Shown here: positions 1 through 14,291 of the stretch, piece after piece
Position numbering within the stretch: position 1 is the first letter of the stretch
How the letters are laid out: the number at the start of each line of letters is the position of its first letter
Source: Flavobacteriales bacterium UBA4466
Lineage (GTDB): Bacteria; Bacteroidota; Bacteroidia; Flavobacteriales_D; Crocinitomicaceae
Assembly (NCBI GenBank): GCA_905182335.1
Contig: CAJJBE010000002.1
Span: forward strand, 1-64,000
DNA length: 64,000 nucleotides
Direction of reading: 5' to 3'
Position numbers and translations under genes: made by a program
Notes under the pieces: generated by a model
Database searches by the model: none
What the model was told of the DNA's origin: nothing
What the model saw: the letters and a program-made list of their open reading frames with translations, nothing else

Positions 1-11
1 TTAATAGTCAA

Positions 12-142: not shown

Positions 143-167
143 TTACCCTTACCCTACTCACACACTA

Positions 168-197
168 TTGGTCTTTAGAGTATTAATATTACTTTTA
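168..197 (+). promoter_or_regulatory. Promoter in module copy 1
   Basis: TTG at 168-170, 19 nt spacer, then TACTTTTA at 190-197. This matches the Bacteroidota consensus TTG-N17-19-TAnnTTTG except for the last base. The predicted start leaves a leader of only about ten bases before the ATG at 214. Confidence 0.6.
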
Positions 198-213
198 GGG
201 AAAATTAACCACT

Positions 214-567
214 ATGAAAAATATATTACTTTTATTACTACTTTCGAGCTGTGCACCATTACTCGGCTATTCTCAAACAGTAAATGACATTCCTATTGAA
301 GATATCAACGTAGAATATATTCAAATCGTTGGGAGAGGAAAACTATTTAGTACAAAATTGACAATTGAAATTGATTTTGGACAACATGATAAAGTCTTCA
401 GTTTAAAAGATACTCAAGTCAAAGATAAAGACGGTAATAGAATGATCTTTAACTCTATGGTAGATGCTTTAAACTTCTTCAGTTCTAATGGGTATGATTT
501 TCAACAAGCTTATACAATTACGATTAGTAATCAAAACGTATATCACTTCCTAATGAAAAAACGCTAA
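214..567 (+). CDS. Small exported protein of unknown function (117 aa)
   Basis: I do not recognise the family. The N-terminus is a hydrophobic signal sequence (MKNILLLLLLSSC then up to SYSQ-like residues near 20). The LSSC segment could act as a lipobox with Cys13, or cleavage could fall after the later Gln, so lipoprotein versus soluble export is undecided. The mature part is short, has no Cys pairs or repeats, and reads as a single small beta-rich domain. The ATG at 214 is fixed by the upstream leader module, which ends at the base before it. The next gene is preceded by its own copy of that module, so this is probably a one-gene transcript. No sorting domain is visible. Confidence 0.7.
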   Translation: MKNILLLLLLSSCAPLLGYSQTVNDIPIEDINVEYIQIVGRGKLFSTKLTIEIDFGQHDKVFSLKDTQVKDKDGNRMIFNSMVDALNFFSSNGYDFQQAYTITISNQNVYHFLMKKR

Positions 568-596
568 TAACAGAGAGAAGATTAAATAAAAAATTA

Positions 597-623
597 AAGC
601 CTTCCACATCGGAGGGCTTTTTT
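597..623 (+). terminator. Terminator inside module copy 2
   Basis: The same 9 bp stem and ACATC loop as copy 1, followed by a T run. Confidence 0.8.
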
Positions 624-649
624 ATTACCCTATCCCTACTCACACACTA

Positions 650-679
650 TTGGTCTTTAGAGTATTAATATTACTTTTA
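650..679 (+). promoter_or_regulatory. Promoter in module copy 2
   Basis: TTG at 650-652, 19 nt spacer, TACTTTTA at 672-679. It drives the gene starting at 699. Confidence 0.6.
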
Positions 680-698
680 GGGGAAATTAAAAACCACT

Positions 699-2237
699 AT
701 GAAAACACTACTACTATCTACAATTCTATTATTTACTGTAAGCCTAAATGCTCAAGACGTAAACATCCCTGATGCTAATTTTAAAAGTTATCTAGTCAAT
801 AATTCTTCTATTAATACTAATGGGGATAGTGAGATACAAGTTAGTGAGGCAAGTGCGTTTACAGGGGCAATTAATTGCTCTTTCATAAACATTTCAGACT
901 TAACAGGCATTGAAGCTTTTACTGCTTTAACTCAACTGGATTGTTGGGGTAATGAACTAACTTCTTTAAATGTGTCTAGTAATACTGCTTTGACAGTCTT
1001 GTATTGTGATAATAATCAACTAACATCTTTAGATGTGTCTAGTAATACTGCTTTAACTTTATTGGGATGTTGGACTAACCAACTAATATCTTTGGATGTG
1101 TCTAGTAATACTGCTTTAAACCAATTGAGCTGTTTTACTAACCAACTAACATCTTTGGATGTATCTAGTAATACTGCTTTAACTCAATTGGATTGTGGTA
1201 ATAACCAAATAACATCTTTGGATGTGTCTAGTTGTACTGCTCTAACTGAATTGGATTGTTTTGGTAACCAACTAGAGTGCTTAAATGTTAAAAATGAAAA
1301 CAACACGGCTTTTGAAACCTTTCTTGCATATGATAACCAAAACCTTACTTGTATTGATGTAGATGATGTAAATTATTCAACGACTAATTGGACTATTATA
1401 GACCCTCAAACCTCTTTCAGTACAAATTGCAACAACAGCTGTTCTCCTCCTCCAATCGTAAATATACCTGATGCTAACTTTAAAGACTTTCTAGTCAATA
1501 ACACGTCTATTAATACTAATGGGGATACGGAGATACAGGTTAGTGAGGCAAGTGCTTTTACAGGAGAAATTGATTGCTCTTCTATAAATATTTCAGACTT
1601 AACAGGCATTGAAGCTTTTACTGCTTTAACGGTCTTGTATTGTGGTAATAACCAACTGACATCTTTAGATGTATCAAACAACACAGCTTTAACTCAATTG
1701 TATTGTTTAGAAAACAACCTAACATCTTTAGATGTATCAAACAACACGTCGTTATTAGAGTTGAATTGTAATTTTAACCAATTAATATCTTTAGATGTAT
1801 CTAGTAATACTGCTTTAACCGGATTGGGATGTGGTATAAATAACCTAACATCTTTGGATTTATCACAGAACACCAATTTAACACTATTGTATTGTGCGGA
1901 TAATAAACTTACTTGCCTTAACCTCGCAAATGGAAATAATACCAATATTATGCAGGGGTCTTTTGTAGCAACCAACAATCCAAATCTAACTTGTATTGAG
2001 GTAGATGATGTAAACTATTCAACAGCTAATTGGACTGATATTGACTCTCAAACCTCATTCAGCGTAGACTGTAATAATAGTGGATGTTCATTAAGTATAA
2101 GCGAACTAAATAACACCCCTAAACAACTAATAAAGATTGTTGATGTGCTAGGCAGAGAAACACCATTTAAGCCAAACACACCTCTTCTATACATCTATAA
2201 TGATGGTACAGTGGAGAGGAAAGTGGTATTGAAATAA
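699..2237 (+). CDS. Secreted leucine-rich-repeat protein with type IX sorting-like C-terminus (512 aa)
   Basis: A signal peptide (MKTLLLSTILL, cleavage near AQ at 18-19) leads into ~21-residue repeats of the form TALTxLxCxxNxLTSLDVSSN, which form a curved LRR solenoid rich in regularly spaced Cys. The protein consists of two copies of one block. Each begins with NIPDANFK and an INTNGD/EIQVSEASAFTG cap (residues ~20-60 and ~255-295), continues with several LRR units, and ends with a conserved LTCI.VDDVNYST.NWT segment. The last ~45 residues (from ISELNNTPKQ to KVVLK) resemble a type A sorting domain, so surface export by the type IX system is likely. LRR solenoids usually bind ligands or help adhesion; no ligand can be inferred. 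The gene has its own promoter and terminator modules on both sides. Confidence 0.88.
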   Translation: MKTLLLSTILLFTVSLNAQDVNIPDANFKSYLVNNSSINTNGDSEIQVSEASAFTGAINCSFINISDLTGIEAFTALTQLDCWGNELTSLNVSSNTALTVLYCDNNQLTSLDVSSNTALTLLGCWTNQLISLDVSSNTALNQLSCFTNQLTSLDVSSNTALTQLDCGNNQITSLDVSSCTALTELDCFGNQLECLNVKNENNTAFETFLAYDNQNLTCIDVDDVNYSTTNWTIIDPQTSFSTNCNNSCSPPPIVNIPDANFKDFLVNNTSINTNGDTEIQVSEASAFTGEIDCSSINISDLTGIEAFTALTVLYCGNNQLTSLDVSNNTALTQLYCLENNLTSLDVSNNTSLLELNCNFNQLISLDVSSNTALTGLGCGINNLTSLDLSQNTNLTLLYCADNKLTCLNLANGNNTNIMQGSFVATNNPNLTCIEVDDVNYSTANWTDIDSQTSFSVDCNNSGCSLSISELNNTPKQLIKIVDVLGRETPFKPNTPLLYIYNDGTVERKVVLK

Positions 2238-2244
2238 AACACTA

Positions 2245-2272
2245 AAGCCTTCCACATCGGAGGGCTTTTTTT
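2245..2272 (+). terminator. Terminator inside module copy 3
   Basis: Same stem and loop as copies 1 and 2, followed by a T tract. Confidence 0.8.
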
Positions 2273-2297
2273 ATACCCTTACCCTACTCACACACTA

Positions 2298-2327
2298 TTG
2301 GTCTTTAGAGTATTAATGTTACTTTTA
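2298..2327 (+). promoter_or_regulatory. Promoter in module copy 3
   Basis: TTG at 2298-2300, 19 nt spacer, TACTTTTA at 2320-2327. It drives the gene at 2344 and possibly the one at 2938. Confidence 0.6.
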
Positions 2328-2343
2328 GGGAAAATTAACCACT

Positions 2344-2928
2344 ATGAAAACACTACTACTTACTTTACTATTAGTCCCAATGATGAGCTTTGGGCAGAAT
2401 TACAATGTAAAAGAAATAGTTAACATTTCTTTAATGGATAATAAAGACTTTATTGATTATGTTCAACTTAAAGGTCTTTCTCTAGAGGAGGGAGAAGCAA
2501 GAGGAGATAGAGAAAAAGGTGAGGAATTTTCATTAGAAGCTATTGCACCTATGTATGAAGCCGTCGATGAAAAAGCAAAAGTTGGGTTTGTTTTTATACA
2601 GAATGAAGATCCCACTAAATCTTTAAAAGGTTTGGTAGTTCCGCGGGGGAGACTTTCGCAAATGGAAGCTTCATGTGTTGTCAGTTTATTTTACAAAATT
2701 TCAGATTCAGAAGAATCACGCCAAAGAGAAGAATCACGCCAAAGAGAAATTGATAAATGGACATTTGATTTAACCTCTAACGGCTTTTATTTTGATGGTA
2801 TAGAGAGAAGTCGTGCAATGGGAAAACGATATAAAGACAAAAATGGAAATGAGTTTTGGATATCAACAGATCCTAATGAGATGGAAATTAATTATATAAA
2901 ACTATCTCAAACTAATGCAAATAATTAA
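2344..2928 (+). CDS. Exported protein of unknown function (194 aa)
   Basis: The family is not recognised. An 18-residue signal peptide (MKTLLLTLLLVPMMSFGQ) is coded by 54 bases identical to those of the next gene, although the mature proteins are unrelated. The mature region is charged, with a predicted helical centre. A perfect 18 bp tandem duplication at 2713-2748 duplicates the peptide ESRQRE, giving a highly charged helix. The C-terminal third (FDLTSNGFYFDG, then DKNGNEFWIS) looks like a small globular domain. No sorting domain is visible, so it is probably periplasmic. The start is set by the leader module. The gap to the next gene is only 9 bp, so the two genes are probably co-transcribed. 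Confidence 0.72.
   Translation: MKTLLLTLLLVPMMSFGQNYNVKEIVNISLMDNKDFIDYVQLKGLSLEEGEARGDREKGEEFSLEAIAPMYEAVDEKAKVGFVFIQNEDPTKSLKGLVVPRGRLSQMEASCVVSLFYKISDSEESRQREESRQREIDKWTFDLTSNGFYFDGIERSRAMGKRYKDKNGNEFWISTDPNEMEINYIKLSQTNANN
2713..2748 (+). repeat. Perfect 18 bp tandem duplication inside a gene
   Basis: Two adjacent identical 18-base units, in frame, each coding ESRQRE in the 194 aa exported protein. Perfect identity suggests a recent slippage or duplication event. Confidence 0.9.
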
Positions 2929-2937
2929 AGAATAACT

Positions 2938-3396
2938 ATGAAAACACTACTACTTACTTTACTATTAGTCCCAATGATGAGCTTTGGGCAGGAAGTTGTC
3001 TCTACCCGAGGTGGCTCATACACCAATTCAAATGGAAGCGTTGACTTTACCATAGGTGAAGTAATCATTAACACGGCCACTGATGGAACAAATGACCTAA
3101 CCCAAGGTTTTCACCAAACCAATTGGAAGTTTGCTGGAATAGAGAACCACAATTCAGACTATGAAGCTATCATCTTCCCTAACCCTACTGAAGGGTTTTT
3201 AAACATAAAGACAAGTACATATGAAAATGTTGTGTACACGCTCTATGATGCTCAAGGGAAGCTAGTAATGCAGGATGAACTTTTTGAAGAACAGACTTCT
3301 CTTCAGGTAAGTCATTTAGCTCCAGGGAAATATTCTTTGGTACTCAACAATGAAGATGAAAAACTGAAAACATTTAAACTCATTAAACACAGATAA
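2938..3396 (+). CDS. Small secreted protein with type IX secretion sorting domain (152 aa)
   Basis: The signal peptide (MKTLLLTLLLVPMMSFGQ) is followed by a short segment with GGSYTNSNGSVDFTIGE and a QGFHQ motif, a module often found just before sorting domains in flavobacterial cell-surface proteins. A typical type A sorting domain follows: IFPNPTEG at about residue 78, then the YDAQGK strand and LAPGKYSLVL, ending KTFKLIKHR. It is a near-minimal type IX substrate with little cargo. It may be surface-anchored, a truncated remnant of a larger adhesin, or a stand-alone carrier; the sequence does not decide. It starts 9 bp after the preceding gene without a leader module of its own. Confidence 0.85.
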   Translation: MKTLLLTLLLVPMMSFGQEVVSTRGGSYTNSNGSVDFTIGEVIINTATDGTNDLTQGFHQTNWKFAGIENHNSDYEAIIFPNPTEGFLNIKTSTYENVVYTLYDAQGKLVMQDELFEEQTSLQVSHLAPGKYSLVLNNEDEKLKTFKLIKHR

Positions 3397-3397
3397 G

Positions 3398-3457
3398 ATG
3401 AAAAGAATTCTACTATCACTAGTTGCCATAGCAACCCTATCATTAAGCTCTAACTAG
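3398..3457 (+). pseudogene. Truncated signal-peptide gene start (19 codons)
   Basis: The ATG lies one base after the stop of the sorting-domain gene. It opens a frame coding MKRILLSLVAIATLSLSSN and then hits TAG. This is a complete n-region and h-region with no mature protein. The frame is cut exactly where the first copy of a 39 bp repeat (3443-3481) begins, so the rest of the gene was probably lost by rearrangement at that repeat. It could be a real tiny peptide, but the junction argues for a broken gene. Confidence 0.6.
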
Positions 3458-3481
3458 TTCACCTTTCGCTGACGTTACACA
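3443..3481 (+). repeat. 39 bp junction repeat, copy 1
   Basis: A perfect direct repeat of 3657-3695, starting TTAAGCTC, holding the palindrome AACTAGTT, and ending GACGTTACACA. Gene fragments on both strands stop inside it. On the - strand it supplies the ending CNVSER-stop, which two unrelated reading frames share. Origin unknown. Confidence 0.9.
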
Positions 3482-3602
3482 CTATGGCATCTTTATAGTT
3501 TCCTGATTTCGCATATGTCAACCCTCTGTTGAAGTACTCTTCAGCTGTCTGCCCAAAGCTCATCATTGGGACTAATAGTAAAGTAAGTAGTAGTGTTTTC
3601 AT
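3459..3602 (-). pseudogene. Truncated exported TPR-type protein (47 codons)
   Basis: Read on the - strand, it starts with the same 18-residue signal peptide (54 bases) found at 2344 and 2938. It continues TAEEYFNRGLTYAKSGNYKDA, which is the first helix pair of a tetratricopeptide repeat. It then runs into the 39 bp repeat and stops (CNVSER-stop). Upstream (3603-3656) is a degenerate copy of the module leader with the TACTTTTA element. TPR proteins are normally far longer, so this is a 5' fragment. A second remnant with the same QTAE.YFN start lies at 11144-11221. Confidence 0.75.
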
Positions 3603-3656
3603 AGTGGTTATTCTTTTCTCTAAAAGTAATATTAATATTAAACCTCTATCTTATTT

Positions 3657-3695
3657 TTAAGCTCTAACTAGTTCACCTTTCGCTGACGTTACACA
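3657..3695 (+). repeat. 39 bp junction repeat, copy 2
   Basis: Identical to 3443-3481 in the same orientation, 214 bp further on. The interval between the copies holds the inverted TPR gene start. Confidence 0.9.
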
Positions 3696-3828
3696 GTACA
3701 TCAACAATCTTCATTAGTTGTTTAGGGGTGTTGTTTAGTTCAGAGATATTTGCGTTGCAATTTTGAGGAGGTGTATCAGTATCATATATTGCACCACAAG
3801 CATCTATACTACAATAGTTTAATAGTTT
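3673..3828 (-). pseudogene. 3' fragment of a type IX sorting-domain gene
   Basis: On the - strand an open frame without a start codon codes a Cys-containing linker. It continues with NANISELNNTPKQLMKIVDVL, which matches the C-terminus of the LRR protein at 699-2237 (ISELNNTPKQLIKIVDVLG). After KIVDVL it enters the 39 bp repeat and ends CNVSER-stop, so the final ~25 residues of the sorting domain are missing. No intact copy of this gene lies in the window. It is a displaced gene end, in line with rearrangement at the repeat. Confidence 0.7.
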
Positions 3829-3832
3829 TTAG

Positions 3833-3840
3833 TATCTTTG
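3833..3840 (+). promoter_or_regulatory. -7 promoter element (TATCTTTG) of the 3868 gene cluster
   Basis: An exact match to TAnnTTTG, 27 nt before the ATG at 3868. No clear TTG is seen at the expected distance upstream. The leader ends AAAATTAACCACT just before the start region, like the modules at 114-2343. Confidence 0.5.
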
Positions 3841-3867
3841 GCTTTTATTTAAAAATTAACCACTATT

Positions 3868-5205
3868 ATGAAAAAAAAACTAGCCTTTAGCTTAGTTGTA
3901 ATACTAAGCGCCACTAATCTCTTCGCACAAGCAGAAGACGTAAAGTATTTACGAAGTTCACTTTCGATGATATTACTTGAGTCAGATGATTTCCCTAACA
4001 AAGATGCAGTTATGTCATCGTGGAATAATTACCCATTTCCAGATAAATATAATGAGCATAATATTGATACAAAAAATTTCAATGTTGATGCAATGGAATT
4101 AAGCAATCAAGATCTATTAGACGCAGGGTTTCTAAAAGATACATTAAACAATGCACTTCAAATAATGAAAGCTGCATCAGATTTAAGACCAGTTAAGTAT
4201 TTAAATGATGAAAAGACACTAGCTGTAGTTCTGCCAAGTGAGAAGCAAAAATATCAATTAAAAATTGATAAGGTAATTAAAGATAATGGCATAGCAAGAC
4301 AGCTTGTTTCATCATGGTTTACTAGAGATGGAAAGTTTTCAGTTGCTGCGATTCAAGAAAGAGGATCTTATAATGCATCAGCAATGGAGGCCGATATAGC
4401 AGCTGGAAATGTTATGTCAAACGCATCTCTTATGGATGCAGGAAAGCAATTAGTACAGAACACATTTGTTACTTTTTCAAAATTAAATTTCTTTAAAAAT
4501 GAACCAGCGGCAGCACTTACTCGTGATTTAGCAAAAGTACAATTGGCAAAAAGCATGAAAGAGAAAAAGAGTCCGCAGATGCTAATAGACAAAGCAATGC
4601 AAGGCCTTGATGTTGTGTATGAAGAAACAAAGGAAGGATATTCATTAGTGTCAAAAACGTGGCTGTATAAATTAGAATGGAATGATAGTATATATAAAAC
4701 GGTACTTTGTCCAATGTGGAATGATGTTGAAAAACTTAATTCTACAGATGCATTTAACCTTGAGTTTGTTGGTAATCAATATAATACAAGTTTAGTAACG
4801 TTTAAAATTGGTGAGCAAAGAACAGAAGAGCAGTTGATTGATATAGCTACAGTTCGTAATATGGATAATGCTTTTGCAAAACTTCAAAACAAAAACGATG
4901 TGTTTAAACCAATGATTCCAGTTTCTTCTTCAGGGCCTATTATGGCAAAAATTGGAATGAAAGAAGGGATTTCTGCTGGAGATAAATTTGAAGTTTTAGA
5001 GATGATTTGGGATGAAAAAGCTGGTCAAACTACATGGAAATCTGTTGGTAAATGTAGTGTAGATAAAAAAGCCCCAATTTGGGATAATAGATATAATTTG
5101 GGTGATGGGCCAGCAACAGATGTTGATGAAAACCCAGTGGCTGCAACTCAATTTAAAGGGTCTAAAAAGATTCAAGTTGGGATGCTGTTAAAGCAATTAA
5201 AATAA
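3868..5205 (+). CDS. Exported protein of unknown function, first gene of a seven-gene envelope cluster (445 aa)
   Basis: The signal peptide (MKKKLAFSLVVILSATNLFAQ) is cleaved near residue 21; the rest is soluble. The named family is not recognised. The C-terminal ~110 residues contain KIGMKEGISAGDKFEVLE, a later GKCSV strand and QVGMLLKQ. The same order of motifs (KIGTKEGI..NDRYF.YE, then GVLYV, then GMMIYEE) occurs in the 591 aa protein at 7814. The two proteins therefore share a domain whose KEGI..GD.F pattern resembles the FlgT C-terminal/OB-like fold; that fold link is inference. The N-terminal ~300 residues look mostly helical. It has its own -7 element and is followed by four close-spaced genes, so it heads an operon to the terminator at 7773. 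Confidence 0.75.
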   Translation: MKKKLAFSLVVILSATNLFAQAEDVKYLRSSLSMILLESDDFPNKDAVMSSWNNYPFPDKYNEHNIDTKNFNVDAMELSNQDLLDAGFLKDTLNNALQIMKAASDLRPVKYLNDEKTLAVVLPSEKQKYQLKIDKVIKDNGIARQLVSSWFTRDGKFSVAAIQERGSYNASAMEADIAAGNVMSNASLMDAGKQLVQNTFVTFSKLNFFKNEPAAALTRDLAKVQLAKSMKEKKSPQMLIDKAMQGLDVVYEETKEGYSLVSKTWLYKLEWNDSIYKTVLCPMWNDVEKLNSTDAFNLEFVGNQYNTSLVTFKIGEQRTEEQLIDIATVRNMDNAFAKLQNKNDVFKPMIPVSSSGPIMAKIGMKEGISAGDKFEVLEMIWDEKAGQTTWKSVGKCSVDKKAPIWDNRYNLGDGPATDVDENPVAATQFKGSKKIQVGMLLKQLK

Positions 5206-5230
5206 TATCAAAATAATAAATTGAGAAAAT

Positions 5231-5767
5231 ATGAGAATTAATACTTCACTTAAAGTAAGTAGCTTGTTGCTACTTACTTTAATTTGCTTCACTTTCAATA
5301 TTAATGCACAGAAAGGCAAGAAAAAAGCAGATAAAGAGACTGTAGCATGGCGCTATGAGTTAGAAGCAGTAGCAACAGGTAGTGCTGGCACGTATCAAGT
5401 AAAGGTTTGGTCGTATTCAAAAAATGTAGAGACTGCAATGGAGCAAGCAAAAAAGAATGCTGTTCATGGAATTATTTTTAAAGGATTCCCTAAAAAAGAT
5501 AGGGTTCAAGGTCAAAAGCCTATAGTTACAGATCCAACTATAGATATCCAAAATAAGGACTTTTTTGAGCAGTTCTTTAAGACAGGAGGCGGAGATTACA
5601 TGAGGTTTGTAACCTTAGCGAATAATGGACAAATTGGCCTAGGAGACAGAATAAAGATTAGTAAAAAAGAATATAAAATCGGTGTAGTAGTATCTGTTAA
5701 TAAATCAGAATTGAGAAAATATCTTGAAAAAGCAGGTATTATAAAAGGTTTATCAAACGGATTTTAA
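5231..5767 (+). CDS. Exported protein of the cluster's three-paralogue family, member 1 (178 aa)
   Basis: The signal peptide (residues 1-26, ending NINAQ) is followed by a Lys-rich stretch. One domain follows, shared with the products of 9607 and 10129. Shared motifs in order are WRYE.E..G.GS.GTY.VK.W.YS, A.EQAKKNAVHGIIFKG, a central FF....G.YM...V segment, GDRIKI..EYKIGVVVSV and LRK.LE.AGIIKGLSNGF. Member 2 at 9607 ends with the identical GLSNGF. The Ala-rich AKKNAV helix followed by a strand is reminiscent of LPP20/FlgT N-terminal domains, but this is a resemblance only. It is 25 bp from the previous gene and 18 bp from the next, in one operon. The copies lie at both ends of the cluster, suggesting duplication within it. 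Confidence 0.75.
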   Translation: MRINTSLKVSSLLLLTLICFTFNINAQKGKKKADKETVAWRYELEAVATGSAGTYQVKVWSYSKNVETAMEQAKKNAVHGIIFKGFPKKDRVQGQKPIVTDPTIDIQNKDFFEQFFKTGGGDYMRFVTLANNGQIGLGDRIKISKKEYKIGVVVSVNKSELRKYLEKAGIIKGLSNGF

Positions 5768-5785
5768 TAATTAATTTTAAGTAAG

Positions 5786-6748
5786 ATGAAAAAGAATATA
5801 ATTTTATTTTTAGCTGTTATCGCGTTTACCTCAAATGCTTTTTCACAGGCTAAAAAGCCAACTATTATGGTAGTTCCAAGTGATGTTTGGTGTAATACAA
5901 ATGGTTATATGATGGAATATGATAACCAAGGAACGAAAGTAAAAATCCCTAATTATAAAAAAGCATTTCAAGAGAATTCTGATGTACAGTTTGTTATTAG
6001 TACAATTGGTAACATGATGGCTGAGAGAGGGTTCCCATTAAAAAGAATGGATCAAGTAATTAAGACGTTAGAATCAAATAGTGCTGAAGATGCTATGATG
6101 TCATCTAAAGATTCTGGAATGGGAGCTAGTGAGAGTCCTAATGATAAATTAAAGGCTGTTGCTAAGGCTGATATAATTATGGGTTTAACATGGACAATTA
6201 ATCAAACGGGACCTGAGAAATCTGTGACATTCGTTTTGGATGGGATTGATGCTTATACAGATAAGCAAGTTGCAGGTGCTACAGGAACTGGTCCATCATC
6301 ATTCTCAGCTGAACTACCTGTTTTATTAGAAGAAGCAGTTCTAGCTCATATTGATAATTTTAACGCAGCTTTAATGACTCATTTTGAAGATTTATTTGCT
6401 AATGGTAGAGAGGTAATTGTTAGAGTGAAAAAATGGGATGATTGGTATGAAGATTTAGAGACAGAATATGGTGATGACGAAGAAGAGTTAGGTGTTCTTA
6501 TCGAAGATTGGATGGCTGATAATACTGTACAAGGTAGATTCAATACAACTGATGCAACAGAGAACATGATGTTGTTTGAACAAGTTAGAATTCCATTATA
6601 TTATGAGCGAAATGGAAAGCAAAGAGCGATGGATACAAGACGTTTTGCTAGAAATCTCAGTAAGTATTTAAAGGAAGAGTTTGAAATTGTTAGTAAAGTA
6701 ACGACTAAAGGTTTAGGTCGTGCAACTATATATCTTGGTGGTAAATAG
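5786..6748 (+). CDS. Exported protein, possibly DUF6175 family (320 aa)
   Basis: The signal peptide (to SQA near residue 21) is followed by KKPTIMVVPSDVWCNTNGYM, a strand then a conserved VPSD.WC motif. I associate this with the Bacteroidota family DUF6175, from memory and unverified. Further segments are an ISTIGNMMAERGFPLKRM helix, a DIIMGLTWTI strand and an acidic stretch (EYGDDEEELG). The C-terminus has RRFARNLSKYLKEE. The alternation of strands and amphipathic helices around TI..VPSD and DIIMGL resembles periplasmic CsgG/TolB N-terminal-like folds. It sits between member 1 of the paralogue family and the CsgG/LpoB-like protein with short gaps, so they are probably co-expressed and may form a complex. 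Catalytic residues are not evident. Confidence 0.72.
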   Translation: MKKNIILFLAVIAFTSNAFSQAKKPTIMVVPSDVWCNTNGYMMEYDNQGTKVKIPNYKKAFQENSDVQFVISTIGNMMAERGFPLKRMDQVIKTLESNSAEDAMMSSKDSGMGASESPNDKLKAVAKADIIMGLTWTINQTGPEKSVTFVLDGIDAYTDKQVAGATGTGPSSFSAELPVLLEEAVLAHIDNFNAALMTHFEDLFANGREVIVRVKKWDDWYEDLETEYGDDEEELGVLIEDWMADNTVQGRFNTTDATENMMLFEQVRIPLYYERNGKQRAMDTRRFARNLSKYLKEEFEIVSKVTTKGLGRATIYLGGK

Positions 6749-6772
6749 TAAACATTAAAAATAATAAAAGAT

Positions 6773-7747
6773 ATGTATAAATTAATTTTTTCACTTTTAT
6801 TTGTTGGATTTATAAGTACTAATATAAATGCACAAAATAAGAAAGGTAAATCAGATGATTTAGGACGAATAGTTCTTAATTCATATATTGCTCCTCAGGC
6901 AGAGGCAATTCCTTCACATGCAAAGAGAATGTTACTTAATAAGTTGTCACAGGTAACATCTTATAATGGTATGGGGGGAAGTTCATTAAATCCTCGATTT
7001 ATTTTGACTCCAAACATAACTGTTTTAACTAAAGATATAACACCAACTGCTCCTCCGATGCATGCTTTAACATTAGAAGTAACTTTTTATATTGGTGATG
7101 GAATAGATGGAAAATTATTTGCTAATTCATCGTTACAAATAAAAGGTGTAGGGCAAAATGAGAATAAGGCATATATTGCTGCTCTAAAAAGAATAAATCC
7201 TAAAAATCCTGCTTTAAAGGATCTTATTGTAGAAGGTAAAGAGAAGATTATAGAATTTTATAATTCTCAATGTGATTTCTTTATTAAAGAAGCTAAAACT
7301 TTAGAAGGGCAGAATAAATTTGAAGCAGCGATCTTAAAATTAACATCGGTTCCAGATGTTTGTAAAGAATGCTACGATAAATGTATGGATGCAGTTGCAC
7401 CAATTTATCAAAAACAAATTGATAGAGAGTGTAAAATGAAGCTAGCAGAGGCAAAAAATGCATGGAGTACTGGACAAGATGCAGCAGGAGCTGATAATGC
7501 AAGTGAATATCTTGCCGGAATAGATCCTAATGCTTCCTGTTTTGGTGAGGTAAAAAAACTTACTTCACAAATTGCAGCTCGTATTAAAGCTCTAGATCAA
7601 CGTGAGTGGAACTTTAAATTAAAACAGCAACAAGACGATGTTAATATTCAAAAGGCAACAATTAAGGCCGCTAGAGATATAGGCGTTGCTTATGGTAATA
7701 ATCAACCAGACGTAAATGTTACATATAATACTGTAGGTTGGTGGTAA
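6773..7747 (+). CDS. Exported CsgG/LpoB-like protein of unknown function (324 aa)
   Basis: The signal peptide ends near NINAQ (residue 21). The N-terminal ~150 residues follow the pattern of CsgG/LpoB-type domains: IVLNSYI, then IPSHAKRMLLNKLSQVTSYNG, RFILTPNITVLTKD, LTLEVTFYIGDG..GKLFA and a KGVGQNE.KA helix. This fold assignment is inferred from pattern. The second half is helical, with GKEKIIEFYNSQCDFFIKEA and TPR-like helix pairs carrying conserved Cys (CKECYDKC, then DRECK and NASCF). The C-terminus is a Gln/Lys-rich helix ending TVGWW. CsgG-like proteins often build or stabilise outer-membrane pores. It lacks a lipobox. The genes are tightly spaced upstream and the terminator at 7773 follows. 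Confidence 0.74.
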   Translation: MYKLIFSLLFVGFISTNINAQNKKGKSDDLGRIVLNSYIAPQAEAIPSHAKRMLLNKLSQVTSYNGMGGSSLNPRFILTPNITVLTKDITPTAPPMHALTLEVTFYIGDGIDGKLFANSSLQIKGVGQNENKAYIAALKRINPKNPALKDLIVEGKEKIIEFYNSQCDFFIKEAKTLEGQNKFEAAILKLTSVPDVCKECYDKCMDAVAPIYQKQIDRECKMKLAEAKNAWSTGQDAAGADNASEYLAGIDPNASCFGEVKKLTSQIAARIKALDQREWNFKLKQQQDDVNIQKATIKAARDIGVAYGNNQPDVNVTYNTVGWW

Positions 7748-7772
7748 AAAATTAAATTAATGTTTAAGAAAT

Positions 7773-7801
7773 GGTTGTCTATTTTAGATAACCGTTTTTT
7801 T
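7773..7801 (+). terminator. Terminator within the envelope gene cluster
   Basis: A 9 bp stem (GGTTGTCTA with TAGATAACC, one wobble) and a 3-nt loop, followed by seven T residues. It lies between the 324 aa and 591 aa genes with no obvious new promoter, so it may lower rather than stop expression of the last three genes. Confidence 0.75.
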
Positions 7802-7813
7802 AATAAATAAGAA

Positions 7814-9589
7814 ATGAAGTATTATATTTTTTTATCCTTTTTGATTTTATCTTGGTCTAGTAAAAGTCAAATTAGCACTTATGTTAGACCTTGCATGTCA
7901 ATTTCTGCAATTGAAAAAGAGGGTAACTTTTTTCAGGCTATAAATAATTCGATAGCAACATTCAATTTTTCAAATACATTAAAGAGGGTAAACATAATTC
8001 CAATTAAAAAACCGATAGCATCAGATACTATTTTCTCAGAATATGGTAAAGATATTACATCATATCTTTTCAATAAAGATTCAAATAATTTATTTAATGT
8101 TAGAAAAATTTTAGAATTTTCGGAATATGCATCCTCTGATGTTCAATCATTTATAAGTAATAATTCTGCAGATAAAGATCAAATACTTACTCAAATTGCA
8201 ACAGAGATGTTGGGTAAAGTTTACATTTTAACTATAGATTTAAAGAAAGTTGAAACATATAAAGATTATTACGATAGAAAGGAAGCAAAAAGAAAAGCAC
8301 GAAATGAAAGAACAAGAAAGTTAGGTGGTGAAGTTTCTGAATCAAATCAAAAACCTATAGAAAGAAAATTGTATGGCTATTTATGTGATTTTGGTTTTAA
8401 ATTAAGACAAGTTAATTGGACACCTGAAATGCTAGACTATTTCTATACAAATTGCTGGATTGATGAAAATACTCCAGAGAATGACAGAGCAAAAAAAATC
8501 GATAATTTTTCTAAGCTGCAATTATCTTCAAAAGTTGTATGGGAAGAATTACAATTAGGTGTATCTGATGGAAGGTCAAAATCAAAACGTAATGGAAGAT
8601 TTATAGAACCAACTCAAGAACAAATGAATAAAATTTTAACGTCATCTTTGCCCCTTGGAATTATTAATCAAACTAATAAATCAATCGTTGAAAATGTGCC
8701 TGAATTTAAAATATTTAATGTTTTGTCTTCTACATATCCATGTAAATCTAAAATTGGAACTAAAGAAGGAATTAGAAATAATGATAGATATTTTGCATAC
8801 GAAAAAATTCAAAAAAGAGATGGTGAAACACTATTAAGAAGAAAGGGTGTATTATATGTCAATTCAGTGGTGAATAATGAAAAAGATAATTCTCTAGCAT
8901 CAAACTTTTTGCAGAGAGGTGGTCGTTCATTATACAATGGAATGATGATTTATGAAGAATTAGATAAAAAAATTAATTTCGATTTTAATTACAATTATAG
9001 TACAGCTCCCTTAAATCTAAGTTCTTATAGTTTATCTCTTGGATTTGGTCCATTTGGAAAAAGAAGTGCATCCTATATAGGTTTGTCTCTTGGAGCATCT
9101 ACCTTTCAGGATTTAACTTATGTATATGATTCTACTGGAAATTATGGTGGAGGTACCGCAAGTTATGATACTATTACACCTAATGGATATTCATTATCGG
9201 TTGGTTTAGAATTTGCTAGAGCTATATATTTAACAAAAAGAGGGAATATTTTTCTTTATCCTAATTTTTCAGTTAATGCTGGCTTTCTATCCTTTTCAAA
9301 TAAGGATGGTGAAGATCAAGATTTTGAAGATCAGGAGTATAAACCATCTCTCACAATTTTTGATGCTAGATTTGGTGTTGGTTTAGGTTTTCATATTGTA
9401 CCAAGTGTATCAATTTTTTATAAACCTTCTATAGGATTTAATATGTATGCATTTGAAAGTAATGCAAATGATGATGATGATGATGATGATGATGAATCTG
9501 AATCTAGGAATTGGAACGACATGGGAGAAGATCTAAAAAAATCACGTTTTAATTTTATTAATACTATTTCTTTAAGAATTCACATATAA
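7814..9589 (+). CDS. Exported protein with N-terminal soluble domain and C-terminal outer-membrane beta-barrel (591 aa)
   Basis: The signal peptide (to KSQ near residue 19) is followed by ~370 residues of soluble domain. Its end carries KIGTKEGIRNNDRYFAYE and GMMIYEE, homologous to the C-terminus of the 445 aa protein at 3868. From about residue 390 the sequence becomes alternating Gly/aromatic strands (FDFNYNYS, SLSLGFGPFG, YSLSVGLEFAR, ARFGVGLGFH) and ends ISLRIHI, as expected for a barrel of roughly 8-10 strands in the outer membrane. A loop near residues 552-563 is a run of eight Asp coded by consecutive GAT triplets, then ESES. The protein could join periplasmic partners of the cluster to the outer membrane. 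No sorting domain is present. Confidence 0.78.
   Translation: MKYYIFLSFLILSWSSKSQISTYVRPCMSISAIEKEGNFFQAINNSIATFNFSNTLKRVNIIPIKKPIASDTIFSEYGKDITSYLFNKDSNNLFNVRKILEFSEYASSDVQSFISNNSADKDQILTQIATEMLGKVYILTIDLKKVETYKDYYDRKEAKRKARNERTRKLGGEVSESNQKPIERKLYGYLCDFGFKLRQVNWTPEMLDYFYTNCWIDENTPENDRAKKIDNFSKLQLSSKVVWEELQLGVSDGRSKSKRNGRFIEPTQEQMNKILTSSLPLGIINQTNKSIVENVPEFKIFNVLSSTYPCKSKIGTKEGIRNNDRYFAYEKIQKRDGETLLRRKGVLYVNSVVNNEKDNSLASNFLQRGGRSLYNGMMIYEELDKKINFDFNYNYSTAPLNLSSYSLSLGFGPFGKRSASYIGLSLGASTFQDLTYVYDSTGNYGGGTASYDTITPNGYSLSVGLEFARAIYLTKRGNIFLYPNFSVNAGFLSFSNKDGEDQDFEDQEYKPSLTIFDARFGVGLGFHIVPSVSIFYKPSIGFNMYAFESNANDDDDDDDDESESRNWNDMGEDLKKSRFNFINTISLRIHI
9469..9495 (+). repeat. GAT trinucleotide run in coding sequence
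   Basis: About eight GAT triplets in a row code poly-Asp in a predicted surface loop of the barrel protein. Changes in copy number would alter loop length without a frameshift. Confidence 0.85.
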
Positions 9590-9606
9590 ATATTTATTTT
9601 TAATAC

Positions 9607-10110
9607 ATGAAACATTTTATTCTTCCACTTTGTTTGATTTTCACTTTTCTATCTTTTTCTCAAGCTAGAAAAAAAGCTAATAAGGACACTAAAAATTGGA
9701 GGTACGAAATAGAAGGAGTTGGTCAAGGTTCTATGGGTACTTATTTAGTAAAGTCATGGCAATATTCAAAAAAGCCAAGAATAGCTCTTGAGCAAAGTAA
9801 AAAAAATGCTGTACATGGTATAATATTTAAGGGTTATCCATCCAGTAAAGGTGTAATAGGACAACCACCATTAGCAAGGAACCCTATTTTAGATGAGCAA
9901 CAAAAAGTATTTTTTGATAATTTCTTTGCTAACAATGGACAATATATGAAGTATGTTAATCTTACGGCAGATGGTACAATTTTGCCAGGAGACAGAATAA
10001 AAATAGGCAGAGAATATAAGATTGGAGTTGTTGTTTCTGTTAGAGTTGCAGCATTAAGAAAAGATTTAGAACAAGCTGGAATTATAAAAGGCTTGTCCAA
10101 TGGCTTTTAG
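9607..10110 (+). CDS. Exported protein of the cluster's three-paralogue family, member 2 (167 aa)
   Basis: The signal peptide ends at FSQ (residue 19). The mature domain aligns over its full length with the product of 5231: WRYEIEGVGQGSMGTYLVK, KKNAVHGIIFKG, then GDRIKI, YKIGVVVSV, LRKDLE and the identical ending AGIIKGLSNGF. The middle region (residues ~80-115) diverges most. It starts 17 bp after the barrel gene and is followed 18 bp later by member 3, so the three are co-transcribed. Retention of two very similar copies in one cluster suggests either non-redundant partners or a hetero-oligomer. No enzyme motif is seen. The function is unknown. Confidence 0.75.
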   Translation: MKHFILPLCLIFTFLSFSQARKKANKDTKNWRYEIEGVGQGSMGTYLVKSWQYSKKPRIALEQSKKNAVHGIIFKGYPSSKGVIGQPPLARNPILDEQQKVFFDNFFANNGQYMKYVNLTADGTILPGDRIKIGREYKIGVVVSVRVAALRKDLEQAGIIKGLSNGF

Positions 10111-10128
10111 TTTAAATTAATATAAATT

Positions 10129-10632
10129 ATGGTTATGAATAGAATAAAATACTACTCAGTTTTTACATTGATGGTTTCATCTTTTATGTTTCTTTCATGT
10201 GGTACTCAAAATAAGGTTGCTGGAAATTTCACTTATAACACTGAATGTTATGGTACTGAACTTGATGGATCATTTACATTAAAAGCATGGGGAAATGGAA
10301 GACATAGATTAGATGCTGTAGAACAAGCAAAGAAAAATGGAATCCGAGATGTAATATTTAAAGGTATAAGTCATGGTAGAGGCGAATGTGATAGAAGGCC
10401 ACTAATTTCAGAACCAAATGCACTTGATAAATATAGTGATTATTTCAATTCATTTTTTGCAGATGAAGGACCATATTTAGATTTTGTTAATCTTAAAGAT
10501 GAGAGAATATTATTTGCAAAGATTTGGAGAAGTAGAAAAAGAGGATCACAAAGTGTTACTCATGGTGTTGTGATTAGAGTCCTTCGAAGTGAATTAAAAA
10601 AGAAATTACTTCAAGATGGTATAATGAGGTAA
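10129..10632 (+). CDS. Lipoprotein of the cluster's three-paralogue family, member 3 (167 aa)
   Basis: A signal peptide with a clear lipobox (MFLSC, Cys near residue 24) marks this as the only evident lipoprotein of the cluster. The mature domain is a divergent paralogue of the products of 5231 and 9607: GSFTLKAWG, A.EQAKKNGIRDVIFKGI, SFFADEGPYLDFVNL, HGVVIRVLRSELKKKLLQDGI. It lacks the GLSNGF ending. Cys residues in the ECYG and GECDRR segments are absent from the paralogues and may form a disulfide. An alternative start at 10135 (MNRIKYY) is equally plausible and does not change the mature protein. It is the last gene before the terminator at 10825. Confidence 0.75.
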   Translation: MVMNRIKYYSVFTLMVSSFMFLSCGTQNKVAGNFTYNTECYGTELDGSFTLKAWGNGRHRLDAVEQAKKNGIRDVIFKGISHGRGECDRRPLISEPNALDKYSDYFNSFFADEGPYLDFVNLKDERILFAKIWRSRKRGSQSVTHGVVIRVLRSELKKKLLQDGIMR

Positions 10633-10824
10633 ATATATAAAAACCACCACTTTAGTTAATAAAAGCATAGTTTATTTTTATAAACTCTAGGCACTATATG
10701 TTTATAGTCTTGATTTAAGGCCTTATGAAATAGAGGATAATGGCTTTTAGACTTTGAGTAAAGAGACAGCCTACAATAATTATTGATGGTTCTTGGCGTC
10801 TTTTAAAAGCTAAAGAATAGAGAC

Positions 10825-10861
10825 AAAAAAGAGGGCTAGCAATACGCTAGTCCTCTTTTTT
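10825..10861. terminator. Bidirectional terminator after the envelope cluster
   Basis: A long stem (GAGGGCTAGC with GCTAGTCCTC, one wobble) and AATAC loop, flanked by A residues on the left and T residues on the right. It can therefore terminate in both directions. Confidence 0.85.
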
Positions 10862-10951
10862 GATATGTTATAAATGGAATACTATTCACTTATTTTTTCA
10901 TTAATCTATTAAAAAGGCATTAGGAGATATTATTTCAATTAAAAGGATAAT

Positions 10952-11099
10952 TAATGATTGATGAAAAGAAGTAACTCACCTGTTTCAAATTTAATTTTCA
11001 CGTCTTCTTCTATTGCTTTGTTTCGTGTTCCAATTTTTACCCCGAAGGTTAAGTCTTGATTTTTTAATGGGTATAGCAATCCTTTAGTAGTTACTTTCT
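10952..11099 (-). pseudogene. Partial duplicate of the thiamine pyrophosphokinase gene 3' end
   Basis: On the - strand this codes about 45 residues (GLLYPLKNQDLTFG, KIGTRNKAIEE, ending FINH-stop) that match the C-terminus of the intact gene at 12497-13108. Similarity also covers ~20 bp past the stop (10931 onward against 12476 onward). The copies differ at scattered bases, so the duplication is not recent. No start or N-terminal domain is present. The pair forms degenerate direct repeats 1,545 bp apart that flank the lipoprotein gene at 11325, suggesting that DNA was inserted next to, or duplicated with, the gene end. Confidence 0.85.
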
Positions 11100-11143
11100 C
11101 ATTTAGATAGATTATAGATATATAACTCTTTAATTCTCTAAAT

Positions 11144-11221
11144 ATGAAAATACTACTGTTTACATTAATATTAGTCCCAATGATGAGCTTTGGGCAGACC
11201 GCTGAAGACTATTTTAATTGA
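11144..11221 (+). pseudogene. Degenerate signal-peptide gene start related to the 2344/2938/3602 genes
   Basis: A 25-codon frame coding MKILLFTLILVPMMSFGQ and then TAEDYFN-stop. Its signal peptide is a diverged copy of the one shared at 2344, 2938 and 3602. The first mature residues match the TPR start at 3602. The frame ends in a 7 bp hairpin (CTATTTT with AAAATAG) followed by T residues. It is a broken 5' end with no downstream mature sequence. Confidence 0.65.
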
Positions 11222-11324
11222 AAATAGTTTTTGGTGGTCTTTTAACACTACTTGGGCTAACTTTTATTATTATTCATGTGGTGATGAGCAACTTTTGACG
11301 AGTCAGGGCCATAAATCAAATCAA

Positions 11325-12122
11325 TTATGGCAAGTTTTCGGTGTCTATTTCCTTACCACGAACAAAATAAACTTTACTTGATGAATTAAGACGCTGCCCA
11401 TAATTTATTTTAATAGTATCATTTCCAATAAATCTCATGGACCCTCTCTTACTAAAGTATTGCTTAGAATTTTTAAATATTCTGGGGTGTACGTCATAAA
11501 CACCTTCTTTATTATAGGAAATGTTTTTGTAAATAGCGCCATTTTTTCTCCAACCATTTCTGCTTTTAGCACTTTTACCGTGTATCTTTAAGCCTTCGTC
11601 ATTACCTCGGTAATCCTTAATTATTTCACGTAAAAAGTATAATTTGTTGCCTCTAAACGACTTTATTCCCTCCCAATAATAACCTAAAAGCATTTTATCT
11701 TCATACTTGTTAAGTGAAGCGTTGATTGCGCTATTTGGCAGATCATCTCTATGCTCATCAATTACCCTGTAAAGCATGTCCATGCTATCTTTACCCCAAA
11801 TTGATGTAAGTGCTTTCTCTAAGCTAATAGCCCCTTCAGCTATTAGAGCCGTATCTGCGCTGAAAGTTACATTAGCTAATCCAAGCATTTCCCATTTTTG
11901 GTTTTGTGCCATACCGCTAAAACACATTATTTTCATTGCTTTTACTGAATCAAGCCATACTTCGTTCTCAGATGAAACCCGGTCAAAATAATAAAGGGAG
12001 CTATCATAATTCTTATTAGTAAAGAACTCATAGCCTTTATTAAAATCATTTGGAGTAAGATTGCAGCTTTGGATCAGGACTATTAGTAAAAGAGGGAATG
12101 CGAATTTTAGTGTCAGTTTCAT
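11325..12122 (-). CDS. Lipoprotein with a TPR-like N-terminus, unknown function (265 aa)
   Basis: The N-terminal signal has a lipobox (LIQSC, Cys20), so the protein is probably lipid-anchored. Residues ~25-50 (FNKGYEFFTNKNYDSSLYYFDRV) look like one tetratricopeptide helix pair. The middle is helical and charged. The C-terminal ~80 residues (from GKSAKSRNGWRKNGAIYKN to RFIGNDTIKINYGQR) are basic and probably beta-rich. The family is not recognised. A TACTTTTA element lies just upstream of the start on the - strand. The gene is flanked by the two partial copies of the thiamine pyrophosphokinase gene end, so it may have arrived by insertion or segmental duplication. Confidence 0.68.
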   Translation of the reverse strand: MKLTLKFAFPLLLIVLIQSCNLTPNDFNKGYEFFTNKNYDSSLYYFDRVSSENEVWLDSVKAMKIMCFSGMAQNQKWEMLGLANVTFSADTALIAEGAISLEKALTSIWGKDSMDMLYRVIDEHRDDLPNSAINASLNKYEDKMLLGYYWEGIKSFRGNKLYFLREIIKDYRGNDEGLKIHGKSAKSRNGWRKNGAIYKNISYNKEGVYDVHPRIFKNSKQYFSKRGSMRFIGNDTIKINYGQRLNSSSKVYFVRGKEIDTENLP

Positions 12123-12496
12123 GTTTTTTTTTATAAAAGTACAATTTTGGTTTAAACAGTAATGTTAAAACAAAATATGTCAATAATTTATATCCTTAAA
12201 TATAATAATTTAATTATCAGCAACTTATATTCGGAATGAGAATATACAGAAAGAGATCAATTCAACTAATTTTCAAAAAGGCACCTCAGAAAATAAGAGA
12301 CCTTTTTTAATACACAGAACACCACTTAAAAAGCATAAGGAAATTGTTCCTCATGACGAATTAAGGTGCCATTTTCTGTTTTCTCTTAGAGCGACTTCTC
12401 TGATTATAAATTAGATACTGTACGCTTATTTTTACAATGTAAAATGAGTAGCACTATTTAAGCTTACTTCGATAATTTTTTCAATTAAAAAGATAA
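12123..12496. other. 374 bp gap between the lipoprotein and thiamine pyrophosphokinase genes
   Basis: AT-rich DNA with no convincing reading frame. It holds the presumed - strand promoter of the 11325 gene near 12125-12145, and a 7 bp inverted repeat (GGCACCT near 12281, AGGTGCC near 12364) separated by ~75 nt. The right end, from 12476, belongs to the repeat shared with 10931 onward. Confidence 0.5.
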
Positions 12497-13108
12497 TTAA
12501 TGATTAATGAAAATAAGTAACGCACCTGTTTCAAATCTAATTTTCACTTCTTCTTCTATTGCTTTGTTTCGTGTTCCAATTTTTATACCGAAGGTTAAGT
12601 CTTTATTTTTTAATGGGTATAGCAATCCTCTAGTATTTACTCTTGTAGCTTTTGGAAATGGGATTAGCGAGATTGTTTTTTCGAAACAATTTGATAATGT
12701 AAGTTCATTCCTCCCAAAAAAGTAGGTTCCAAAGTCATCGAAAAAAGTAATTTTCAACTTGTCCTTCCATAGGATTGCAGTATGTAAATTCCCTAAAAAA
12801 TGATCTTGTTCCTTTCCGCTTCCAGCAAAAACATCAATAGAATGATATTTTTTTTGATGTAAAAGGTGAAGTATTTTTTCGAAATCTGTGAAATCTTGAT
12901 TTGGTGTATGTATGGTTTCTATGCTTATTGGTATGTCTTCTAAAGAATCAAAGTCCCCACTTATAAAATCAGGTTTTATATTGTTTTCTTTTAAATATTG
13001 GTATGCGCCATCTGTTGCACAAACGAGATCATAATTAGAACTGTTTGGAAGTTTTTTAGGCTTTTCACCATTTAATAACAAAAAAACTTTTTTGGTTTTC
13101 ATAAACAC
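12497..13108 (-). CDS. Thiamine pyrophosphokinase (203 aa)
   Basis: It transfers pyrophosphate from ATP to thiamine to make thiamine diphosphate in the cytoplasm. Family signatures are ATDGAYQYL near residue 31 and PDFISGDFDS near 46, the Asp-rich active site of TPK, followed by the DFEKIL helix. GLLYPLKN and the GTRNKA segment match the C-terminal thiamine-binding beta domain. The length fits bacterial TPKs (200-220 aa). The start could be 13108 or 13102 (second Met). A partial, diverged copy of its last 45 codons lies at 10952-11099. A small broken secreted-protein frame sits 8 bp upstream. Confidence 0.85.
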   Translation of the reverse strand: MFMKTKKVFLLLNGEKPKKLPNSSNYDLVCATDGAYQYLKENNIKPDFISGDFDSLEDIPISIETIHTPNQDFTDFEKILHLLHQKKYHSIDVFAGSGKEQDHFLGNLHTAILWKDKLKITFFDDFGTYFFGRNELTLSNCFEKTISLIPFPKATRVNTRGLLYPLKNKDLTFGIKIGTRNKAIEEEVKIRFETGALLIFINH

Positions 13109-13116
13109 AAAATTAC

Positions 13117-13293
13117 CTAAAATGTAGGGAGAATATTTTCTCCTTTTTTTAGTATGTTAATTCCGATTTGAGATGCAACACTATTTTTATAAGCAACCAT
13201 GGTATTTTTTTCGTGTGTTTGCCCAAAGCTCATATTGTAAAGCCACATAAAAGCGAAAAATACTGAAAAGAAAATATTGATTATTTGACCCAT
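13117..13293 (-). pseudogene. Small exported frame, probably the broken 5' end of a membrane protein gene (58 codons)
   Basis: From ATG at 13293 the - strand codes a signal peptide (MGQIINIFFSVFFAFMW up to NMSFGQ). About 33 residues follow, including SVASQIGINIL, before a stop 8 bp from the kinase gene. The NMSFGQ cleavage region resembles the shared signal-peptide cassette of this window. The mature part looks like the first strand of an outer-membrane protein but ends abruptly. It could be a genuine micro-protein; truncation is the simpler reading. Confidence 0.45.
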
Positions 13294-13307
13294 AGGACTA
13301 CTGCTTT

Positions 13308-14243
13308 TTATTCTAAAATAGAAATACCATCTGTTTTACAGTCAAAGTTTGAATTGGTTATACCCAGAAAGTCTAAAATACTAGCTGATAAGTCAGTTTG
13401 ATTACTCGTATAATTTTTTCTAAAACTCAATATTGGGTGCTCAGCGAAAAAAATCGTCTTATTTATGTTAGGATTACTTGAGTCCCCATGACCTGTGCCT
13501 TCTCCGCCATGATCAGAAACAATAAAACAGATCCAATCTTCCCCATCTACCCTTTTAGTCTCAATCAGATTAAACAATTCATTTACATAAGAATCTAAGG
13601 TATTTAACGTATTTGCATATTCTTGCACACTAGGGCTGAATCCATAGTTATGTCCTGCTACGTCTAACTCATCAAAATGCAAGAAAACAACATCTGGAGA
13701 GACTGGGTTGGAGTTGATAAGTAGGTCTTTTGCCTTCTCAAAAACTAGAGAATCATTGATTGGTTCCGTAGGAGAAAAATCAGAGCAAGACGATAAAATA
13801 TGATCATTTATAGGAGTCCAGTTTACAATAGATATAGTATTAATATTTTTACTAATACCCTCTATATAACTGAAAAAAGAAGGATATCTATCAAAGGTAT
13901 TTCCTTCAAAACTATTATCTGTGACAGTATGTTTGTCATAGTGTACCCCTGTTAAAAGACTTGACCAATTTGGACCGCTGTATGTATCTCCTTCAACAGA
14001 ATTAGCGGGTGTAAAATAAACATTGTTATTTAAGGAGAGGCTATGCATAAATGGGGTAATGTCTACTTGCATAGCATCACTCCTAAAACCATCGATACCA
14101 ATAATAAGGACTTTACGTTTGATTTTGAGAGAATCTACGCTCGTTGAATTAGCATAATCATCACAATCAGGGACTTGGTCTTTTTTACATCCAATATGAA
14201 AAAAAAAGATGAAAAAAGTTAAAGCTGGGAATAGTTTTTTCAT
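13308..14243 (-). CDS. Lipoprotein of the alkaline phosphatase superfamily, phosphodiesterase/nucleotide pyrophosphatase type (311 aa)
   Basis: The signal peptide ends in a lipobox (HIGC, Cys19), indicating a lipid-anchored enzyme. The metal-binding signatures of the superfamily are present in order: GIDGFRSDAM near residue 49, a SGPNWSSLLTG nucleophile-region segment near 92, DELDVAGHNYG near 192, and SDHGGEGTGHG near 243. These fit the type I phosphodiesterase/nucleotide pyrophosphatase branch. The substrate (nucleotide, phospholipid or phosphate ester) cannot be told from sequence. It is 49 bp downstream of the CotH-like gene on the same strand, so they may be co-transcribed. Its length of 311 aa is at the short end but the catalytic set appears complete. 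Confidence 0.8.
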   Translation of the reverse strand: MKKLFPALTFFIFFFHIGCKKDQVPDCDDYANSTSVDSLKIKRKVLIIGIDGFRSDAMQVDITPFMHSLSLNNNVYFTPANSVEGDTYSGPNWSSLLTGVHYDKHTVTDNSFEGNTFDRYPSFFSYIEGISKNINTISIVNWTPINDHILSSCSDFSPTEPINDSLVFEKAKDLLINSNPVSPDVVFLHFDELDVAGHNYGFSPSVQEYANTLNTLDSYVNELFNLIETKRVDGEDWICFIVSDHGGEGTGHGDSSNPNINKTIFFAEHPILSFRKNYTSNQTDLSASILDFLGITNSNFDCKTDGISILE

Positions 14244-14291
14244 AATGCTTAAAATTAATAGCAGTAAGTTAAATGCGAGTAGATTCCGTAA

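Follow-up and report, generated by a model that had tools for sequence, protein, structure and literature searches.

The first 64,000 nucleotides of contig CAJJBE010000002.1 from Flavobacteriales bacterium UBA4466 (assembly GCA_905182335.1; this whole stretch is the window below) carry, at positions 3868-10632, seven co-directional plus-strand open reading frames (ORFs) separated by gaps of 18-66 base pairs (bp). As an earlier note on this DNA described, each of the seven ORFs starts with an export signal; these signals, and the lipobox of the last product, were read by eye from the sequence. The cluster consists of a core operon, A445-P178-DUF6175-C324, followed by a second set, B591-P167-L167. 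The core is a gene unit with paralogy inside the cluster, its families co-occur across genomes, and two of them are fused in a remote lineage. The features are as follows (aa, amino acids).

3868-5205, + strand: A445, 445 aa, exported, first gene of the core operon; C-terminal motif domain, no Pfam match
5231-5767, + strand: P178, 178 aa, exported P-family member, with an AlphaFold2 model
5786-6748, + strand: DUF6175 protein, 320 aa, PF19672 over its full length
6773-7747, + strand: C324, 324 aa, exported; four invariant cysteines
7814-9589, + strand: B591, 591 aa, A445 paralogue; C-terminal tail with an outer-membrane-barrel pattern
9607-10110, + strand: P167, 167 aa, second exported P-family member
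10129-10632, + strand: L167, 167 aa, P-family lipoprotein, lipobox ...FLSC
10824-10862, + strand: terminator-like hairpin of 17 pairs, 3′ of the last gene (5 such sites in the scan vs 2.6, standard deviation 1.6, in shuffles)

The earlier note found no recognised function among the seven, and this holds: the DUF6175 protein alone has a Pfam match above cut-off, to a family without assigned function, and 0 of the 7 proteins pass an NCBIfam cut-off. All seven ORFs are conserved coding sequence, since the ratio of nonsynonymous to synonymous substitution rates (dN/dS) is 0.06-0.19 in every gene between the window and locus L033 (L numbers are our locus labels). The synonymous rate itself is uneven (0.26 in B591, 0.37 in P167 and 0.83-1.33 in the other five genes), which suggests recombination or differing histories within the cluster.

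The protein families of the cluster

The earlier note grouped two soluble proteins and one lipoprotein as paralogues. This P family is real, as a single profile (built with the window members included) matches all three genes, at 5246-5749, 9610-10092 and 10141-10629. The structure prediction suggested at the time was run for P178, and gave a model of good quality (predicted local distance difference test 87.8, predicted template modelling score 0.76) with the predicted order strand-strand-helix-(insert)-strand-helix (E43-49, E54-61, H66-83, E148-157, H158-167).

A second paralogy had been overlooked. A445 ends in a motif domain, KIG.KEG..GDKFEVLE, near residues 343-445. An A-family profile built without B591 matches B591 at 8051-8863 with an E-value of 3.6e-17, so that by profile evidence A445 and B591 are paralogues; their pairwise BLASTP E-value of 0.16 is not significant. 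The motif domain also occurs in a 566-aa protein ahead of the core at locus L028 (E 3.6e-4); in 1422 ORFs there is no other match beyond the A family.

The product that the earlier note tentatively assigned to DUF6175 from its VPSD.WC motif is indeed a DUF6175 protein (PF19672, E 8.9e-124, 412.8 bits vs a cut-off of 23, positions 1-293 of 293). Mean column identity in the family is 66%, and identity of its members to the window's protein is 58-88% (55 aligned sequences), an unusually high level for a periplasmic protein without known role. The literature searched, which mostly lacks subscription papers and so leaves room for an account elsewhere, contains no paper naming DUF6175 or PF19672, none combining LPP20, CsgG and Bacteroidetes and none holding three of LpoB, CsgG, TolB and FlgT. 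The fourth family is represented by C324, with four cysteines invariant across 40 aligned sequences.

Several other matches were rejected. Single-member Pfam matches (for example HTH_CodY, 0.00015, in P; ARM_TT21, 2.4e-5, and MYG1_exonuc, 7.7e-5, in C) are taken as chance, because such scattered matches are under cut-off where one is shown (cut-offs are given for some rows only, and some E-values are below 0.001), inconsistent between members or biologically implausible. Profile searches of the PDB gave best matches that we also take as chance for A (ribosomal eL14, E 0.0067), DUF6175 (E 0.31) and C (E 0.043), and no match for P. A CsgF match on the A protein of L185 (E 0.0054) is under cut-off. 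A role in anti-phage defence was rejected, PADLOC giving one weak match only (Cyclase on DUF6175, E 0.0061).

Conservation and co-occurrence of the unit

In the genome collection, 493 stretches encode a DUF6175 relative. We compared the window with the best 80 of these 493, chosen by DUF6175 similarity; strict profiles used the sequences within length limits (78 C proteins from the 81 loci, 58 A, 123 P and 81 DUF6175) and the alignments for structure prediction were built from 45 P, 56 A and 55 DUF6175 proteins. A P gene lies immediately 5′ of DUF6175 in 79 of the 81 loci, C lies immediately 3′ in all 80 loci having a downstream gene, and A is found at position -2 or -3 in 77/79. Gene order thus recurs at DUF6175 loci across Bacteroidota, which the earlier note had proposed to check, and the searches made assign no known pathway to what it called one cluster of exported proteins; it is the core that is kept as a unit. 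Genes are tightly packed, with a median gap of 17 bp across 277 gaps, and DUF6175 is preceded by one P gene in 40 loci, by two in 39 and by none in 2. Two loci, L084 and L100, depart from the gene-order rule. Distances co-vary as well, with a Mantel r of 0.60-0.73 over 75 loci where shuffles reach 0.16 at most.

The flanks are mostly unshared, the largest shared families being present upstream in 9/73 loci and downstream in 13/73. The full seven-gene form is confined, among the named loci, to the window and L033, whose DUF6175 protein is 88% identical to the window's. The cluster is self-contained: L033 shares all seven genes with the window, and its 14 other ORFs have no match among those of window positions 1-16000. 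L185, from a related genome, shows a barrel-type order, B-P-L directly before DUF6175-C. Single ORFs joining A and P at L101 and L183 were not counted as fusions, because the join falls inside the P signal peptide and the contigs are metagenome-derived. At L186, a 446-aa exported protein adjoins C (5547-6887, - strand); it has an N-terminal repeat-like motif, GQGKTKDEAKYSALRNAIE, and no Pfam match above cut-off.

Co-occurrence was followed in a draw of 395 genomes from the phylum, in which likeness to the window played no part. DUF6175 is present in 19 of them. C is found in nine genomes, all with DUF6175 and exactly those with the unfused form; P in 12, all with DUF6175 (the nine C-bearing genomes and three with a fused form); and A in six, five of them with DUF6175. 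The number of candidates scored in each genome was limited (C, 5; P, 9; A, 4), so remote copies may be missed, and this search recovered 3 of 10 fused P domains. We read 12 of the 19 DUF6175 neighbourhoods, counting the window's own separately. At the eight unfused loci besides the window, C lies directly downstream of DUF6175 in 8/8 and P directly upstream in 7/8; at the remaining locus, L024, P is found further on.

No match was found in 72,556 plasmid records, giving no sign of a plasmid origin. Family labels are intermixed in parts of the DUF6175 tree. The 'Cellvibrionales' and 'Chlorobiota' labels of L035 and L059 may be mis-binned, and since many labels belong to metagenome bins we do not claim transfer from this tree.

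Repeats lie on both sides of the cluster. A coding stretch of 57-75 bp at the start of signal peptides is repeated on both sides (2341-2397, 2935-2991, 3529-3612, inverted, and 11141-11217), and inverted repeat arms of 88% identity at 3529-3603 and 11143-11217 bracket the cluster. Upstream, there is a 47-bp direct repeat (3438-3484 and 3652-3698), with a 36-bp core that has just two copies genome-wide, and an exported repeat protein of 512 aa, with DNA repeats of 63 bp (699-2237). Downstream, a 167-bp direct repeat (93%; 10929-11095 and 12475-12641) encloses a gene for a 265-aa lipoprotein, its second copy overlapping the 3′ end of a minus-strand gene at 12497-13108.

Variants, a probable membrane location and a proposed complex

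Fusion of P to DUF6175 is seen in a remote lineage of ten genomes (families f29 and f31). There, the N-terminal part is matched in 9 of the 10 loci (E 7e-7 to 6e-3) by a P profile from which the fused loci had been left out. Close to the fused gene, all ten loci (L011-L020) have an LPP20 ORF, as scored with an LPP20 profile to which some of these genomes contributed sequences. These LPP20 proteins have a C-terminal domain similar to the N-terminal one of C324, with a score of 47-55 vs a background maximum of 28 over 20 neighbour families. Three of the four core parts thus recur rearranged and fused, which argues that the P, DUF6175 and C products meet. The window's own genome also encodes an LPP20 protein (471 aa frame) beside a CsgG-family protein (462 aa frame), at C4:35599-36670 (L001, L115), and the C-terminus of this LPP20 protein resembles, by eye, the C324 N-terminal domain.

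Three remote unfused clusters, L025, L026 and L027, have other exported proteins ahead of P-DUF6175-C. The L027 protein matches both LpoB (2.9e-9) and CsgG (1.9e-8) above cut-off. Its L025 counterpart matches CsgG just above cut-off (2.2e-4) and LpoB just under (1.9e-4), and that of L026 has a weak LpoB match (0.025).

Export signals, the lipobox, the tail of B591 and barrel genes next to the operon in other genomes indicate the outer membrane as the likely location of the module. From about residue 386, B591 has an alternating hydrophobic, barrel-like pattern; it also matches a neighbour protein at L032 (E 3.7e-8) with a tail that itself matches OMP_b-brl_2 under cut-off (5.2e-4). On this pattern and this likeness, the C-terminal barrel that the earlier note saw in B591 is plausible, not proven. 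Beside the operon, an OMP_b-brl_2 protein is found at L112 (2.8e-28) and an OMP_b-brl protein, under cut-off, at L024 (8.1e-6). A family of about 215 aa follows C in 13/73 loci, its single scanned member matching DUF3575 (E 6.2e-8).

We propose that the seven genes are an accessory, non-flagellar envelope module whose products would form an outer-membrane and periplasmic complex with a scaffold or assembly job, and we consider this proposal evenly poised between right and wrong. The A, P, DUF6175 and C proteins would make up a periplasmic core complex lying against the inner face of the outer membrane, with P touching DUF6175 directly. Lipoprotein L167 and a beta-barrel may serve as anchors, the barrel being provided here by the tail of B591 and in some other genomes by small, separate barrel proteins encoded next to the operon. 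The window would thus hold a second A-P-L set, its A copy having a barrel tail. The most likely job would be scaffolding or assembling something at the outer membrane, such as a ring, a collar or an export or assembly platform, in a mode broadly like that of CsgG, LpoB or FlgO/P/T-type proteins without membership of those systems. A scaffold or assembly platform is our best guess. Of the single machine suggested by the earlier note, the conserved unit stands on gene order, co-occurrence and fusion, and we infer the formation of a complex.

Several results weigh against this proposal. What linkage and co-occurrence show is a functional unit, which need not be a stable complex. The distribution is patchy: within the window's family the module is present in 8 of 60 genomes, and the 3 other genomes of the window's genus all lack it, so that the group does not depend on it; one genome of the phylum draw, G280, has a short C-terminal partial A match without DUF6175. 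The B591 tail is below detection by Pfam OMP_b-brl (E 0.25, 11.9 bits vs a cut-off of 28.7) and scores no better than background in profile comparison with neighbouring barrels. Barrel-type tails occur in 3 of 84 A proteins (the window, L033 and L111; six A proteins without the motif used were left unscored), and an own barrel is therefore absent from most clusters. In Foldseek the P178 model has 395 PDB matches at E ≤ 10, none of them at E ≤ 0.001, which is no proof of a new fold. The likeness of DUF6175 to CsgG appears moderate and method-dependent: the hhalign score is 45-48 vs a background maximum of 25, falls to 29.7 vs 24.8 without leaders, and in the strictest comparison, with close DUF6175 sequences only, fades to 26.2 vs 25.6.

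A bolder version, offered tentatively and in our view rather doubtful, is that Bacteroidota have an undescribed outer-membrane machine that may move horizontally. Its fixed P-DUF6175-C part would be a ring or export platform, with at least one component, P, whose predicted fold lacks a clear PDB match, and its outer-membrane parts would be exchangeable: a barrel, fused or separate, or a subunit of CsgG/LpoB type. In either form, many Bacteroidota have here a multi-gene envelope unit that is tightly conserved and has no assigned function. It is a defined gene set, in which the P-DUF6175 fusion and the families that co-occur point to the first interactions of interest. A true outer-membrane assembly would be a new machine in an envelope where lineage-specific systems already abound.

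Comparison with known systems

The earlier note drew an analogy with parts of the flagellar outer ring and the curli pore. This stays conjectural, with echoes in the DUF6175-CsgG signal, the CsgG/LpoB proteins of variant clusters and the LPP20 proteins. The non-flagellar context is supported: neither FlgI nor the flagellar rod family Flg_bb_rod is found in the window's own genome (91.92% complete; controls positive).

Like curli (CsgG, PF03783), the cluster is an exported operon, with the method-dependent DUF6175 similarity described above and a CsgG-family protein ahead of P at L025 and L027. In a curli-like (type VIII-like) export route, DUF6175 would be a remote CsgG relative helping a small secreted protein across the outer membrane, and the substrate could be a secreted helical protein of about 161 aa encoded directly upstream in 9/73 loci. 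We think this improbable, as the window's cluster and 64/73 loci lack the candidate substrate and the CsgG similarity fades with the strict profile. Furthermore, none of the seven proteins matches CsgG at E ≤ 10, the DUF6175 protein has no lipobox, and CsgF has 0 matches in the same genome, the E. coli control being positive. C324, described earlier as CsgG/LpoB-like, is detectably neither; it has no Pfam match to either family, and with a profile score of 14.5, no better than background, C324 as CsgG is rejected.

SHS2 proteins have the order strand-helix-strand-strand, and the predicted order of P178 differs from it. The earlier note likened P to LPP20/FlgT-N. This we reject at the sequence level, as PF02169 (LPP20) matches 0 of 45 P members at E ≤ 0.1 and the P-LPP20 profile score is below background; at the level of fold, the P178 model has no PDB match at E ≤ 0.001. 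The best Foldseek match of P178 is trigger factor, with TM-scores near 0.2, and FlgP, Lpp20 and FlgT are not among the best 50 of the 395. PMC12222027 reports that FlgP, Lpp20 and FlgT share the SHS2 fold, and that FlgP and FlgT form rings. A structural ring or collar of this kind, not tied to a flagellum and perhaps surrounding another trans-envelope machine, would fit this background and the LPP20 proteins with a C324-like domain found in the fused lineage. It could also draw on FlgT_C, to which one of 38 A-family members has a sub-threshold match (E 0.093); nothing passes the threshold, and this is what is left of the earlier FlgT-C suggestion. Given the sequence and strand-order results for P, we hold such a ring or collar to be unlikely.

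LpoB (PF13036) is matched by the proteins ahead of P at L027, above cut-off, and at L025, just under, and by none of the window's seven at E ≤ 10. The variant matches raise the idea of an envelope housekeeping or stress module, acting in outer-membrane integrity or in LpoB-like activation of a peptidoglycan synthase without a large assembly, and the conserved cysteines of C324 would suit a stable periplasmic factor. The patchy distribution speaks against such a role, and paralogous, multi-copy P and A genes fit assembly better; we give it little credence.

The accessory envelope module proposed here can finally be placed among families that it contains or adjoins. Its 320-aa protein is a full-length member of DUF6175 (PF19672), to which no function is assigned. 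The B591 tail, joined to an A-family protein and undetected by the DUF3575 and OMP_b-brl models, differs from the barrels of those families; it resembles them in that such barrel genes adjoin the operon in some lineages.

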